Source of the DNA: Fulvivirga marina
Lineage (GTDB): Bacteria; Bacteroidota; Bacteroidia; Cytophagales; Cyclobacteriaceae
Length of the DNA stretch: 64,000 nucleotides
Direction: 5' to 3'
Assembly: GCF_016775155.1 (NCBI RefSeq)
Contig: NZ_JAEUGD010000042.1
Span: 372,001 to 436,000, forward strand
Positions 47,159 through 52,957 of this stretch are shown in pieces (positions within the stretch are counted from its first letter, which is position 1; each line of letters opens with the position of its first letter). A program made the position numbers and the translations under genes. The notes below the pieces were generated by a model. The model made no database searches. It saw only the letters and a program-made list of their open reading frames with translations, and was not told the DNA's origin.

Positions 47159-50100
47159 TCATACCGGTATACTAATCGTAAATTCGGTAAATTCATTTTC
47201 CTGGCTAGCAACCTCAATGCTGGCCTTTAATTTATCCACACACATTTTAACCAGATATAATCCCAAACCACTACCTTTTGATTTGTCTGAGCCCCTAAAG
47301 AACATTTGAAATATCATATTCAGGTGTGGCGAATGGATTCCGATGCCATTATCTTTAATCTTTATTTCGAAGATACCATCCTTGATACTAGTGGAGATGT
47401 GGATATGATGAGGATCATCACTTTCAGTCTTTCTGAAAATAAGTGCGTTCTCAATAATATTCTTGATAATTATACCCAGTAAATAGCGATCTGATGTGAT
47501 GTTTATCACCTTTAGGTCGAAAGAGTATTTTGTATGGAACCCTTTGTCATGAAATTTGATAAGATCCCTTATTTCACTGAGTAGGGATGGGATGTCTATT
47601 TCCTCTTTATGAGGTTTACTATTGATGATCTCATGAACTTGGGCCAACTTGGATAGTAATACTCCCATATCTTTTGCCGTATGCTCAATCATATCAAAAT
47701 ACTTTCTATTGATATCATCAGGGGATTCAAGCTTGGCCAGTGACGTTATGCCATTAATTCGGCTGATAGGGCCTTTTAAATCATGAGATGCCCTGTATAC
47801 GAAAGTGTCCAACTCTCCATTAATTTGCTGAAGCTTTTTTAGTGTGGCTTTAATTTTAGAAGTTCTTTTTTCAACCTTTTTTTCGAGATACATGTTCAGC
47901 TCCGTCAGCTTCTGATTCATATTCAATATCTCTTCCTGTGAGTCTTTTAGCTGGATGTTTTTCTTCTGAATATCGTCTTTCTGAAGGCTAATCTCTTCAT
48001 TTTTGGTCATTAGAAGGTGATTTTGCTGTTCGATTTCCCTCTTTTGAGTCATCACTTCATAAGTTCGGTCTGCCACAATGAGTTGAAGTTTCTTCCTTTG
48101 GGTACGTACTCTGACTGAATAGGCTATGGTAATAAACCATACCACAAAACCTGCCAGTGCAGACCACAATACATAAGCCCATGCAGTTTGGTACCAGGGA
48201 GCCAATACCTTGAATTTGTAAGTGGCTAACCTACCCTCAGTGCCATATATATTTTTTGACTTAACAAAGAAGATGTACTCTCCCGGGTCAAGGTTGTTGT
48301 ATTCTTTTTTCGTTTCTGTCGACCAGTTAGACCAACCGCGGTCGTTGTTTTCTAAATAATAGCTAAACTGGTTTTTCTCCGGAACCTCATAACTTGTAGC
48401 AGAATACTCAAAAGTGATGCTATTATCATCATAAGTGAGTATTGGCTGCATGTCTTCAGGTTGAATAATACCAATTCCCGGGATGTCAGAGCCGTCTACT
48501 TTGACCGGATAAAAGCCATGAAAGATTACTGAGTCCCTAATAGCAGCCTTTCTAATAATAGTATTGAATGGAATGGTATAGTCTTTCTTTACTTTAGAAT
48601 CATAGCGAAAAAGGCCTTCTGAGCCCGCAATCCACACAACTCCGTTTTTCTCAGGGTATATGGCAAGTATTTCCATTTCAGGAAGCCTTTTAAAGGGGGT
48701 AGTTTCTCTTAAATATTCATCTCCAACTTTATAAAAACGTTCTATATGTTCCGTTCTGTCATCTTGAATGACTGATGCATAGTAATCCCCATTAGCTGCT
48801 TTGGATATTTTCCCAATGTTAACGGGGCTTTTTATTAAGCTTGAGTCTCTTACAAATTTTATGTTGCCGTTTGAGTTAATGTGTTTATAGATTCCATGAT
48901 CGGTAGTGAAAAGTATATCACCTGCATGTTTTATGATATTGATCTTGTTTACATCGGGCAGTTCATTTTCTTTATTTAGTAAATCTATAATGGGAGTATT
49001 ACTGTTCAAGGGTATCTTATATACCCCGGTGAACTTAGATGATGCCCATAAATTGTAGTCATCCATTAACATACTTGTTACTGTATTATTGCTAGTATTC
49101 ATAAGCGGATGTACTGTATATCTATCATTGTTATAGCTTAGTTTGCTTATGCCGGCCCATAATCCTACATATAATTCTTTTTCATGACCATAAGGTTTAA
49201 AAAGTTTATTTATGGCAGGTAATTCTTCAATTAAATTAGCTTTGCCTTGGTCAACCTCATAGAGTCCTGTTTCTGTAGCTACTATTAAAGTTGTTGAGGA
49301 TGCGCTTTTTGATATTGAACTTAATGACCATACCTTGTTACCTATACCTGGAACCTTATTGAATCGGTTTTCTTTTAGGTAAAACAAGCCTTTTGTTGTT
49401 CCAATGTAAAGTGTATCACCTAGTCTATATATATCCCATGGAGTTCCTTCTATACCATCTTTGTTATTCCAATATTTCCATGGTGAAAGGAATTCAATTT
49501 TGGAAATTCCTTCTTGCATAGCACTCCAAAGGTTGTAATCGTTATCGATATACAAAGTTTTTATAAAGTCACTTTGAAGACCCGAAGCTTTGTTGATAAC
49601 GGTGAAATTTTTAAGGTTGGAATTTGTTTCAACAATTCCATTTTTGAATGTTCCAAGTAGTAGCTTTGTTGAGTCAGGTGTATTGACTTCAATTCCGGTA
49701 AATAATATATTTTCAGCTAAGTACTTTGAAAGGTTATTTTGAATTGGTGTGTAGTTTGATCCATTTTTGCTGAAAAATAAGCCGTTTTTAAAGCTGCCGA
49801 TTATGGTGCTGTCGTTTCCTCCATTACTCATAAATGTTAGTATCCCTATATTGGAGATATCTGTACCTAGTATGCTTGTATTGTTATTTTTGTCAATACT
49901 TATCAAGCCCTTGTCTTTTTGTATGCTATATAGGTTGCCTTGATTTTTATATAATGAAAATTGAAATGGGTAGCCATCCGATTCAATAGTTTCTATTGTT
50001 CCGTCTTCGTTAAGTACGAAGATGACTTCAGGTGAAAGGAAATATATTCTTTTATTGAAGGGGATAATTTTTCTGATTGACGAAAAAGAGGACTGGTGAT

Positions 50101-50458
50101 TGCTCTCTTTTAGTAACGAAGTGAAGGAGAGTTGGCCGTTTTTAAGTGGTTTTAGGAATCCGAAATCTTCCTTGCTGCCAACATAAATCCTATTATTCAA
50201 GTCTTTTGCAATACAACTTGCTATAGCATTGCTTGGAATAGCATTGAATTCCCACCAACTGCCGTTGTAGATTAGTACTCCGTCAAAATTCGCAGCATAC
50301 ATCATCCCATCATGCCCCTGTATTATATCAAAATTCGATATCGAGGCTTGATAGTCACTGCGGTTGTAATTATGAATAAAATAATTCCCATTATTTTGAC
50401 CTAAGGCATATATTGTCAATAGGAAGTGTAATGAGAGGAACAGTGTTTTTTTGAGCAT
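47159..50458 (-). CDS. Reg_prop / Y_Y_Y two-component sensor histidine kinase (second copy)
   Basis: The 1099-residue protein has a signal sequence (MLKKTLFLSLHFLLTIYALG), a Reg_prop propeller sensor region (about residues 25-680), and a Y_Y_Y domain (SYYLENNDRGWSNWSTETK, NLDPGEYIFFVKSKN). One membrane helix lies near 760-785. A long coiled coil (heptads from RTYEVMTQKREIEQQ to MNQKLTELNMYLEKK) leads to the kinase core. The phospho-His is in TFVYRASHDLKGPISR and the ATP-binding motifs are IIENALIFRK, DNGIGI and GSGLGLYLVKMC. It ends with the kinase, so no receiver or DNA-binding domain is attached. The architecture matches the kinase at 13062. No response regulator is adjacent. Confidence 0.92.
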   Translation of the reverse strand: MLKKTLFLSLHFLLTIYALGQNNGNYFIHNYNRSDYQASISNFDIIQGHDGMMYAANFDGVLIYNGSWWEFNAIPSNAIASCIAKDLNNRIYVGSKEDFGFLKPLKNGQLSFTSLLKESNHQSSFSSIRKIIPFNKRIYFLSPEVIFVLNEDGTIETIESDGYPFQFSLYKNQGNLYSIQKDKGLISIDKNNNTSILGTDISNIGILTFMSNGGNDSTIIGSFKNGLFFSKNGSNYTPIQNNLSKYLAENILFTGIEVNTPDSTKLLLGTFKNGIVETNSNLKNFTVINKASGLQSDFIKTLYIDNDYNLWSAMQEGISKIEFLSPWKYWNNKDGIEGTPWDIYRLGDTLYIGTTKGLFYLKENRFNKVPGIGNKVWSLSSISKSASSTTLIVATETGLYEVDQGKANLIEELPAINKLFKPYGHEKELYVGLWAGISKLSYNNDRYTVHPLMNTSNNTVTSMLMDDYNLWASSKFTGVYKIPLNSNTPIIDLLNKENELPDVNKINIIKHAGDILFTTDHGIYKHINSNGNIKFVRDSSLIKSPVNIGKISKAANGDYYASVIQDDRTEHIERFYKVGDEYLRETTPFKRLPEMEILAIYPEKNGVVWIAGSEGLFRYDSKVKKDYTIPFNTIIRKAAIRDSVIFHGFYPVKVDGSDIPGIGIIQPEDMQPILTYDDNSITFEYSATSYEVPEKNQFSYYLENNDRGWSNWSTETKKEYNNLDPGEYIFFVKSKNIYGTEGRLATYKFKVLAPWYQTAWAYVLWSALAGFVVWFITIAYSVRVRTQRKKLQLIVADRTYEVMTQKREIEQQNHLLMTKNEEISLQKDDIQKKNIQLKDSQEEILNMNQKLTELNMYLEKKVEKRTSKIKATLKKLQQINGELDTFVYRASHDLKGPISRINGITSLAKLESPDDINRKYFDMIEHTAKDMGVLLSKLAQVHEIINSKPHKEEIDIPSLLSEIRDLIKFHDKGFHTKYSFDLKVINITSDRYLLGIIIKNIIENALIFRKTESDDPHHIHISTSIKDGIFEIKIKDNGIGIHSPHLNMIFQMFFRGSDKSKGSGLGLYLVKMCVDKLKASIEVASQENEFTEFTISIPV

Positions 50459-50573
50459 TATGATGAAGGCCCTCTATAAATCCATAAAGCAATCAATTTG
50501 ACAATAGAAAACTACTGTCAAAAGGACTAAAATAACTTTTGCTGACTAGAAAAAAAATCAGATTAGATATTTT

Positions 50574-51056
50574 TTATTTCTTTATGGATTGAATGTATTC
50601 AGGGGTGTATTTCTCAGCCATGGTTTCGTACCATTTTAACAAAGTTTCTGCGCCTAAATTATCATATATAATACTATATTGTTTTTTAAGCCTTTCCTCA
50701 TGCTCTTTTAATGCTTTCGTGGGATTCTCAATTAATGAGTTACGTTGCTCTTGTTTAATGTTGGGAGGGGTGGGGTCATGATGAATAAACCTTTTGAAGT
50801 GCTGTATGCAAAACTTGTAATATAATTTAGTATGTAGGATGAAATTGTGCCACATTTCATCTATTATGAGCAATGGCTTATCTATGAATAATGCTGTTTC
50901 GGAATTTTGTGTTTTTGATGCTAGCCAAAGCCATTTTTTTGTTTCTATAAAGATATCCTTGGCCTCTTCATAACTAACATTGTATCTTTCCATAAAGCCT
51001 TCGATTACAATCTTCTCAGTATCGCAATCTGTTGCTTCCATTAAATCAATAGTCAT
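50574..51056 (-). CDS. WH/HH-motif protein downstream of the small Cys peptide
   Basis: The 160-residue cytoplasmic-type protein has a striking central motif, IIDEMWHNFILHTKLYYKFC, followed by FKRFIHHDP. Such DxxWHxFxxHTxxYxxFC...HHxP segments are known to me from bacterial proteins resembling the GRDP (glycine-rich-domain protein) family. The clustered His, Asp and Cys could bind metal. The C-terminal half is a charged helix ending TPEYIQSIKK. No function is assigned. It lies 78 nt after a 41-residue peptide gene on the same strand, with a strong hairpin between, which suggests a peptide-plus-partner unit. Calling it a modifying enzyme would be inference. Confidence 0.7.
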   Translation of the reverse strand: MTIDLMEATDCDTEKIVIEGFMERYNVSYEEAKDIFIETKKWLWLASKTQNSETALFIDKPLLIIDEMWHNFILHTKLYYKFCIQHFKRFIHHDPTPPNIKQEQRNSLIENPTKALKEHEERLKKQYSIIYDNLGAETLLKWYETMAEKYTPEYIQSIKK

Positions 51057-51080
51057 GTGAATTTAAATTAGTGGTGAGAA

Positions 51081-51117
51081 AAATATTTGGAAAGTAGAAG
51101 TAACTTTCCAAATATTT
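51081..51117 (-). terminator. 15-bp perfect hairpin between the peptide gene and its downstream gene
   Basis: AAATATTTGGAAAGT and its exact complement flank a 7-nt loop. On the minus strand a TTTTTCTC run follows. A leaky terminator between a small peptide gene and its partner is common in peptide operons, where it gives more precursor than enzyme. Confidence 0.8.
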
Positions 51118-51134
51118 AAGAAAAGGGTGATGGC

Positions 51135-51260
51135 TTAGCCAGCAGCGCATGTTGAGATACAAGCTACCTTGTTGTCATTCAAATTTTTAGCCACTAATTT
51201 TTGAATTAAATCTTTTTTGTCTAGATTTAAAGACGGGTTGTTTGCCAACTGATAGTTCAT
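51135..51260 (-). CDS. Small Cys-containing peptide, RiPP-precursor-like
   Basis: This 41-codon ORF, read by hand on the minus strand, begins MNYQLANNPS and ends KVACISTCAAG before a TAA stop. It has a leader-like middle (LNLDKKDLIQKLVAKNLND) in which LNLD resembles the FNLD box of class I lanthipeptide leaders. The short tail carries Cys34, Ser36, Thr37 and Cys38 and ends in Gly, like a modifiable core. A well-formed promoter lies 38 nt upstream and a hairpin follows the stop, which supports a real gene. No LanB, LanC, radical SAM or YcaO gene is in the window, so a modified product is inference. Confidence 0.65.
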   Translation of the reverse strand: MNYQLANNPSLNLDKKDLIQKLVAKNLNDNKVACISTCAAG

Positions 51261-51297
51261 AGTTTGTAAGTTTTAGTTGTTGTTTGTAATTCGGGTG

Positions 51298-51327
51298 CAA
51301 AGTTAATTTATTATTTTTTGCATCAAA
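51298..51327 (-). promoter_or_regulatory. Promoter of the small Cys-peptide gene
   Basis: On the minus strand TTTG is followed 18 nt later by TAACTTTG, close to the Bacteroidota consensus. It leaves an untranslated leader of roughly 30 nt before the peptide start codon. Confidence 0.65.
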
Positions 51328-51448
51328 AACTTACATACGTGATTTTGTTAAGAAATCGAAATTTCTTGGACTAATCAAATATTATCTTGGATTGACAACA
51401 AAACTTTGTAATTCAAATTGAGGTTTGTAGAATATTTTACATACCGGG

Positions 51449-51486
51449 AGTAAAAAAGGGCTACCATTAGGTAGCCCTTTTTTACT
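51449..51486. terminator. Strong 17-bp inverted-repeat terminator after asnS
   Basis: Perfect 17-bp arms (AGTAAAAAAGGGCTACC and its complement) flank the loop ATTA, with A- and T-runs in the arms. It ends the minus-strand asnS message and isolates it from the peptide unit. Confidence 0.92.
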
Positions 51487-51514
51487 TTTTAACATTTTCT
51501 TACATCAACTTACA

Positions 51515-52957
51515 TCAGAACTCAGCATTGTCAGGAGTTCTTGGGAATGGTATTACATCGCGGATGTTGGTCATTCCTGTTACGAATTGTATCATGCGTT
51601 CAAAGCCTAAGCCAAATCCACTGTGTGGTGCGGAGCCAAACTTCCTAAGTTCCAGATACCACCATAAGTCTTTTTCCGGGATGCCTATTTCGTCAATACG
51701 CTGTTTTAGAATACCATACCTTTCTTCACGCTGAGAACCACCTATTATTTCGCCAATGCCAGGGAAAAGCACATCCATGGCTGCTACAGTTTTTCCATCA
51801 TCATTTTGACGCATATAGAAGGCTTTTATGTCTTTAGGGTAGTTGTAGAGTATTACTGGTTTTTTGAAGTGTTTTTCAACCAAAAACCTTTCATGTTCAG
51901 ATTGTAGGTCAGCCCCCCAGCCTTCGATGAGGTATTGGAATTTCTTCTTTTTATTAGGTTTTGAGTTTCTTAAGATATCTATGGCTTCGGTATAAGTAAC
52001 CCTCTCAAAATCATTTTCTGCTACAAACTTCAATCTTTCCAGTAAGCTTAACTCACTTCTTTCCTGTTGAGGTTTAGTTTTTTCGTCATCAAGGGCTCGC
52101 TGGTTAAGGAAAGCCAGGTCATCACTACAGTTATCTAAGGCATAGTTTACAAGGTACTTGACGAATGCTTCGGCCAAATCCATGTTGTCGTTGATGTCAT
52201 AAAATGCCATCTCTGGTTCTATCATCCAAAATTCGGCCAAGTGACGTGATGTATTGGAGTTTTCTGCACGGAAAGTGGGGCCAAAAGTGTAAATTTCGGA
52301 CAATCCCATACATGCTGTTTCACCTTCAAGCTGACCTGATACTGTAAGGTTTGTCTCTTTGCCAAAGAAGTCTTCTTTATAATTTATATTACCATCCTCA
52401 TCTTTAGCAGGGTTGGCTGGGTCCAGCGTAGTTACTCTGAACATTTCTCCGGCACCTTCTGCATCAGAACCTGTAATGATTGGAGTGTGGACGTTGTAAA
52501 AGCCTCTATCTGTGAAAAATTTATGTACTGCGAAAATCATCGCATGGCGAATTCTATATATGGCACTAAACGTATTGGTCCTTACTCTGAGGTGAGCTAT
52601 CTCTCTTAAAAACTCCAGAGAGTGTTTTTTTGGTTGCAGGGGAAACTTTTCAGGATCAGCATCGCCGAGTATCTCAATGTTCTCTACTATTATCTCTACA
52701 CTTTGACCTTTTCCTTTGGATTCAGCAAGATCACCGGTAACCGAAATACAAGCGCCGGTAGTTATTCTTTTGAGGAGTTTCTCGTCAGTATTTTCAAAGT
52801 CTACTACGCCCTGAATATTGTTGATAGTTGAACCATCATTTATTGCTATAAACTGGTTGTTACGAAATGTTCTAACCCAACCTTTCACGTTTACTTTTTT
52901 GCCAATGACGGGGGCATCAAGAAGTTCTTTGATCTTTGTTCTTTTCAAGTCTTTCAC
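51515..52957 (-). CDS. asnS: Asparaginyl-tRNA synthetase
   Basis: AsnS charges tRNA-Asn with asparagine. The 480-residue class II enzyme has an N-terminal OB-fold anticodon domain ([20 protein letters not shown]) and a catalytic domain. Motif 1 is near [14 protein letters not shown], motif 2 is [19 protein letters not shown], and motif 3 is [20 protein letters not shown], followed by DVIPFPRTP. Length and motifs are normal, and the [12 protein letters not shown] stretch fits the Asn rather than the Asp enzyme. It is monocistronic. Confidence 0.97.

Follow-up and report, generated by a model that had tools for sequence, protein, structure and literature searches.

A cysteine-tailed peptide ORF, a partner protein and a propeller sensor kinase in Fulvivirga marina: a candidate peptide-signalling cassette

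A contig of Fulvivirga marina carries a 41-codon open reading frame (ORF) with a cysteine-containing tail, followed by a 160-residue protein (c0) that belongs to no Pfam or NCBIfam family. What might such a peptide and such a partner do together? A first-pass annotation of the window—the whole 64,000-nucleotide stretch of DNA analysed here—had treated them as a two-gene unit and had put forward a new class of peptide maturation or a peptide-sensing pair as possibilities. The best supported reading, though not a proven one, is signalling: judging from sequence comparisons, we give nearly an even chance to the unit being a cassette for peptide signalling, with a new, RiPP-like family of precursor and partner at its base. 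That family is real and recurrent and, as far as we have searched, undescribed, its novelty being provisional: no description of the pair was found in the literature searched, which covered few subscription papers and included parts of PMC5831011 and of a study of RiPP mining in Bacteroidales (PMC10352776).

All parts of the unit lie on the minus strand. A promoter-like site of the form TTTG-18 nt-TAACTTTG (51298–51327) precedes the 41-codon ORF MNYQLANNPSLNLDKKDLIQKLVAKNLNDNKVACISTCAAG (51135–51260), a precursor-like peptide in which a leader-like part (residues 1–31; 51168–51260), with a K-K-x-L-I-x-x-L-x-x-K-N pattern common to related loci (group A, below), runs into the hypervariable core VACISTCAAG and the stop codon (51135–51167). 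A perfect 15-bp hairpin with a short T-run, TTTTTC (51081–51117), separates the peptide from c0 (50574–51056), residues 65–95 of which (50772–50864) hold the conserved block IDEMWHNF...Y...C...HHDP. Peptide ORF, Cys tail, hairpin and c0 are thus all present as first annotated, but the two-gene frame was too narrow: a third gene, encoding a sensor kinase of 1,099 residues (47159–50458), follows c0 after a gap of 115 nt.

A 480-residue ORF of the same orientation lies upstream of the unit (51515–52957), and we take it to be an asparaginyl-tRNA synthetase gene; a strong inverted repeat with T-runs between it and the peptide promoter (51444–51485) is probably a terminator. Inspection of the listed neighbouring ORFs revealed no recognisable lanthipeptide or radical-SAM gene, in agreement with the first-pass annotation. 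Neither an exporter nor a protease nor a response regulator was seen in the window cassette, which counts against a signalling role, and no linked transporter or protease for export or leader removal was seen beside the unit; the genome does hold one unlinked C39 ABC gene.

Recurrence of the peptide ORF and its flanking signals

Peptide ORFs were scored by a fixed rule: an ATG start, 25–80 residues, the same strand as the following gene, a stop codon at most 300 nt upstream of it and at least two Cys in the last 30 residues. Such an ORF precedes 44 of 49 distinct c0 genes (L049 left aside); for other genes of the loci, the figure is 45 of 300 (six loci and genes <400 nt from a locus end left aside). 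The 44 include two picks that we read as spurious, in L064 and in L080, where the true peptide has a later start. The five misses are the second copy of L046, L047, L048, L059 and L063; the peptide of L048 is there to be seen and exceeds the length limit, L063 falls at a contig start, and L047 and L059 have no recognisable peptide, which counts against the signalling reading. The recurrence that the annotation had proposed looking for is therefore present, and its picture of a peptide with a dedicated partner is supported: short ORFs adjoin most of the c0 homologues examined, in Bacteroidota, Gammaproteobacteria and cyanobacteria.

The two ends of the peptide differ in conservation. The helical leader pattern K-x-x-L-I-x-x-L/I is common across loci, leaders of the GG type being broadly similar, and throughout group A leaders are conserved and cores hypervariable. 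Between the window and L032 only 3 of 31 leader codons differ, all at third positions and two of them silently, and yet the cores cannot be aligned; against L033, 18 of 30 leader codons differ, eight silently. At least two Cys are kept in 20 of 21 group A cores, the exception (L130, with one) counting against the signalling reading. Some of the residues first singled out fared less well than the Cys: the LNLD leader is present in the window but otherwise found in its closest relatives only and absent from most group A leaders, and the tail of Cys, Ser, Thr, Cys and Gly is there in the window but its Ser and Thr are not conserved, three of the 21 cores having neither from the first Cys onward. 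By layout, the ORF would pass for a ribosomally encoded RiPP precursor with leader and core, and c0 is the sole linked candidate for a modification enzyme at the window unit.

The site at 51298–51327 resembles a Bacteroidota-type promoter. Its pattern alone is not rare (six occurrences in the window, 4.4 expected). However, 10 of 21 group A loci have an element TTG-N17..24-TAnnTTTG placed 66–69 nt ahead of the start codon, compared with 68 of 5,640 random 150-nt stretches, and this recurrence at a fixed distance favours the promoter first proposed; the other 11 loci contain no such match.

The window hairpin is exceptionally stable (minimum free energy −15.9 kcal/mol, z −9.4, none of 200 shuffles equally stable). 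Among peptide–c0 gaps of 40–160 nt (excluding L049, L064, L056 and the second copy of L058), 35 of 37 fold at z < −2 (median −4.5), compared with 22 of 66 control co-directional gaps (median −0.9); that so many controls fold strongly counts against the signalling reading. The hairpins keep their position behind the peptide ORF. Since their stem sequences are unrelated between loci and many relatives' stems have no T-run, we put their role no further than partial terminator or mRNA stabiliser. An Rfam search of 50400–51600 returned only matches below each family's gathering score.

The partner protein and the linked sensor kinase

Searches with Pfam, NCBIfam and PADLOC gave scattered weak matches for the c0 family, none of them meaningful. 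The WHxF...HHxP motif noted at first pass is real: it reads WHNF...HHDP in the window, and none of D66, W69, H70, Y79, C83, H93 and P95 varies among 35 aligned c0 sequences, nor do the corresponding residues vary in eight remote bacterial relatives. This invariance in both sets is our ground for a possible metal site made of D66, H70, C83 and H93.

An AlphaFold model of c0 is almost all helical (pLDDT 91.3). Foldseek found no fold for it in the PDB (best E-value 1.3), and four matches from a profile search of PDB sequences (E 0.12–0.3) were read as chance. Against BFVD, no match reached E ≤ 0.001; the two best had probability 1.00, E near 0.017 and TM-scores of 0.29–0.49, and one of them is a GRDP-like viral protein (probability 1.00, E 0.017, TM 0.43/0.49). 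The c0 profile aligned with that of the eight remote relatives in hhalign (98.5%, 2.5e-15), and two of those eight give sub-threshold matches to PF07173 (E 0.00095 and 0.0019). From these profile and model comparisons, c0 is best described as remotely related to GRDP-like proteins; its D-W-H/C/H-P motif is invariant. Three of the remote relatives (L018, L020 and L027) have Cys tails of their own, in the form of CGSC or of a terminus rich in Gly and Cys, which gives the impression of a peptide joined to its partner in one protein; L027 also matches a YxzE-like putative bacteriocin weakly, below cut-off.

The kinase has Reg_prop, Y_Y_Y and HATPase_c domains above the Pfam cut-offs and HisKA just below (25.0 against 26.9 bits). 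Judged by eye, its N-terminus and a stretch behind Y_Y_Y are hydrophobic, which points to an extracytoplasmic propeller. A full-length kinase lies downstream in 21 of 62 distinct c0 units, and one cut at the contig end in two more (L032 and L038). Across 196 genomes of the family, with three candidates scored per genome, kinase matches at E ≤ 1e-120 occur in 11 genomes, as 12 copies. The 11 are exactly the genomes with a c0 scoring >150 bits, and all 12 copies adjoin c0; this linkage speaks for the signalling reading, the scoring of only three candidates per genome against it. Fourteen of 15 genomes of the genus have a kinase match at E ≤ 1e-100. The genome that holds the window has two c0-linked kinases, which score 888 bits against each other; no other of the 96 kinase matches there exceeds 241. 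Linkage of kinase to c0 goes beyond mere synteny, because the upstream genes vary between sub-groups.

There are exceptions to strict linkage, and those in G585 and G589 also count against the signalling reading. Four kinase fragments from three draft genomes are not linked to a c0 there: G584 has two of them, G582 and G585 have one apiece, and c0 finds no match in G585. A close c0 copy of the genus, in genome G589 (L132, contig C138; 183 bits) has no kinase in the 8 kb examined; a 61-codon ORF there, KNDLVNAMIREN, with the leader pattern and one core Cys, overlaps the longest c0 reading, and the ORF downstream of this c0 is presumably a membrane-type AraC-like regulator. As in peptide quorum sensing, a precursor gene stands beside a membrane sensor kinase in these units, L132 being an exception, and in the window's group the three genes, propeller kinase included, make up a near-strict module. 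The peptide-sensing pair raised as a possibility at first pass thereby acquires a candidate receptor. A kinase tree gave no verdict on a single clade of c0-linked kinases, as paralogue branches were long and one 'paralogue' (L090) was the linked kinase itself. At L069 on contig C63 of the window's own genome (1025911–1027101), the second c0-linked kinase has a further related kinase beside it, encoded on the other strand.

Of all parts of the 21 group A kinases, the propeller varies most, with a mean pairwise identity of 0.30 (residues 25–680), compared with 0.62 for Y_Y_Y, 0.59 for membrane and coil and 0.49 for the catalytic part. Comparisons of close pairs, with the propeller taken as residues 25–600, suggest that its divergence may track that of the core. 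Window and L124 are 92% identical in the C-terminal part and 45% in the propeller, and their cores share no similarity. Four pairs with C-terminal identity of 0.86–0.90 and core similarity of at least 0.67 have propeller identities of 0.65–0.77; L040/L072, L037/L039 and L066/L070, with similar cores, reach 73–77% in the propeller at 86–90% in the C-terminal part. L037/L073 counts against co-variation, having similar cores and a propeller identity of just 58% (C-terminal part 81%).

With C-terminal (kinase) and c0 identity removed, the partial correlation of core with propeller (residues 25–600) is 0.80 (permutation P 0.0013) when only the 16 pairs whose C-terminal parts are ≥0.7 identical are taken, and 0.48 in 23 pairs (P 0.026). 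Over all 210 pairs it is 0.04 (P 0.38; under an earlier definition r 0.18, P 0.08), which counts against the signalling reading. For leaders against propeller, r is −0.61, −0.49 and −0.04 in the sets of 16, 23 and 210 pairs. The 16 close pairs are non-independent, and since close pairs were inspected before the thresholds were chosen, the co-variation is suggestive only.

Distribution and genomic settings

The window's own genome contains a second c0 copy, 58% identical and with its own short Cys ORF; some 107 kb from that copy lies an unlinked LanB-type gene (G000:C63:1129427–1131691). At E ≤ 1e-3, c0 homologues occur in 30 of 196 genomes of the family; at E ≤ 1e-8, c0 is found in 13 of 15 genomes of the genus and in 12 of 390 of the order; and a c0 profile matches 3 of 395 genomes in a phylum sample at E ≤ 1e-10, own genome included, with at most eight candidates scored in each. 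The distribution of c0 is accordingly patchy. Further homologues came from 32 loci of genome contigs and from 41 plasmid records, 25 of them from Escherichia, one of which was opened; phage records gave two weak matches only. The opened record (L064), the mobilizable 7.9-kb E. coli plasmid pHUSEC41-3, encodes a JmjC_2 protein and an ABC transporter in addition to a c0 homologue whose own tail is rich in Cys, and has no clear separate peptide.

Clustering of the loci gave four settings, in each of which Pfam domains were checked in single loci. Group A (Fulvivirga, Marivirga and their kin) has the order peptide, c0, kinase. Group B (Shewanella, Alteromonas and others) combines one to three GG-leader peptides and one or two c0 genes with HlyD and a C39-peptidase ABC protein (checked in L058); in Shewanella (L046, L053 and L058) up to three similar GG precursors stand in tandem, with two c0 copies in each locus. 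Group D (Flavobacterium and Chryseobacterium-like hosts) has a GG peptide, c0 and an S9-type hydrolase (checked in L041).

Group C, found in Mucilaginibacter, on the plasmid of Aureibacter and in a number of genomes from the genus and family to which the window belongs, joins an HCSNCGHC-type peptide and c0 to a SIFPKR protein of ~300 residues, a TonB receptor, DUF4374, an ABC ATPase and a DUF3526 permease (checked in L077). The SIFPKR protein has no Pfam match, and its predicted structure was set aside (pLDDT 73.4; Foldseek E-values down to 2e-5 at query TM 0.16–0.27 and rmsd mostly >15). Just before the group C peptide, the Rfam DUF805b RNA (RF02914) passes its gathering score in five of seven loci searched (L065:5669–5703, L054:809–843, L137:3757–3791, L079:6783–6818 and L077:7645–7680), and one or two TGCAACAnTGTTGCA-like palindromes stand upstream in most of 14 loci compared by eye. 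Several of these clusters (L061, L062, L065, L077–L080, L134, L136 and L137) resemble a peptide metallophore for which uptake genes are encoded alongside.

Interpretation and known systems

The same pair occurs elsewhere without this kinase—with exporters in group B, with a TonB receptor, DUF4374 and ABC genes in group C, with a secreted S9-type hydrolase in group D, or on a plasmid that also encodes a JmjC-type protein and an ABC transporter—as would suit an antimicrobial or otherwise active RiPP-like compound made by peptide and c0, the kinase controlling the unit in response to some other cue. We consider this unlikely for the window, if well worth keeping in mind: no exporter or immunity gene was recognised in its group, and core and propeller divergence move together among close pairs. 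If c0 instead loaded a Cys/His peptide with metal, the cassette might sense or deliver that metal in a metallophore-like way, and the invariant H, C and H of c0 and the group C cores that adjoin TonB receptor and DUF4374 genes (HCSNCGHC, for example) are what one would expect. The window-group cores, however, have no conserved His, one has a single Cys, and no uptake genes were recognised beside these units, all of which makes metal handling improbable here.

A lanthipeptide-like route, with an unlinked LanB acting on the peptide and c0 as an accessory, could draw on the one LanB-type gene elsewhere in the genome and on the window's LNLD leader, which we take to resemble class I lanthipeptide leaders. 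We rejected the class I reading on core composition, given the 3 of 21 cores without Ser/Thr; LNLD is missing from most group A leaders; and neither LanB nor LanC was recognised beside the unit, the genome's sole LanB-type match being on contig C63 and the window on C37. This route strikes us as very improbable. Hardly credible is an untranslated short ORF, with the leader region and the hairpin working purely at the RNA level: strong, recurrent hairpins speak for it, but the leader differences between the window and L032 are confined to third positions, and reading frame and Cys tails are kept across phyla.

Under the signalling reading, the 41-codon ORF would supply a precursor whose helical leader is conserved and whose C-terminal core is hypervariable but holds one to three Cys, parts that are plainly encoded. 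Promoter-like site and hairpin are likewise in place: the former would drive the peptide, and the latter may stop part of the transcripts or protect the peptide mRNA, so that peptide exceeds c0. Through its D-x-x-W-H / C / H-x-P site, c0 would recognise the leader and process or load the Cys core, probably with a metal, and the product would leave the cell via an unlinked exporter. The extracytoplasmic propeller of the adjacent kinase could then sense that product, a step for which we rely on the observed three-gene linkage and on the partial co-variation of core and propeller. A wider proposal, which we regard as rather doubtful, is a new RiPP-like class in which a GRDP-superfamily maturase with a metal site acts on Cys cores; beta-propeller histidine kinases would read strain-specific peptide pheromones in Fulvivirga-type bacteria, the pair serving exported or metal-scavenging peptides elsewhere.

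Were the signalling reading true, Bacteroidota would have a system of peptide signalling that is encoded in the genome and comes with a candidate receptor, and the bacterial relatives of the GRDP-like superfamily—whose biochemistry was not found described in the literature searched—would gain a function. Mining for RiPPs by marker enzymes would probably miss such a precursor/partner pair. The unit, no more than a kinase with a short peptide and its small partner protein, lends itself directly to tests in culture.

Several known systems touch on parts of the unit. With GRDP-like/DUF1399 proteins (PF07173), c0 appears to share a fold (at the Foldseek E-value of 0.017, above 0.001) and the motif D-x-x-W-H / C / HH-x-P, whereas the window c0 has no Pfam match and PF07173 is absent among 25 of the 27 families listed for 35 members; plant GRDP2 is, in the part of the source available to us, a multi-domain protein of unknown function (PMC4299439). 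GG-leader RiPPs and bacteriocins with C39-peptidase ABC exporters find a likeness in group B, with its GG leaders, HlyD and C39 ABC protein (Pfam, one locus, L058), but the window peptide has no GG, c0 matches no known maturase and none of ten precursors tested passed an NCBIfam cut-off. Group C has its TonB receptor and DUF4374 protein (checked in L077, annotated in L065) in common with Xus-type siderophore uptake, the DUF4374 family including, in the portion of the source seen, siderophore-binding XusB (PMC13142918); it adds its own Cys/His peptide and c0, and Xus-like genes are not part of the window unit. MNIO enzymes (PF05114; MbnB/TglH/ChrH-type) have no match in the window's own genome.

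A further parallel to the window unit comes from Gram-positive bacteria. In peptide quorum sensing of the Agr/Com type, a small precursor is encoded beside a sensor kinase, the peptide is hypervariable and part of the sensor is variable. The window kinase has a Reg_prop propeller instead, c0 is without counterpart in Agr/Com, and no AgrB-type protease, exporter or response regulator was recognised in the window cassette. The likeness lies in the arrangement: in the window, too, a small precursor stands beside a kinase, the peptide is hypervariable and the sensor has a variable part.
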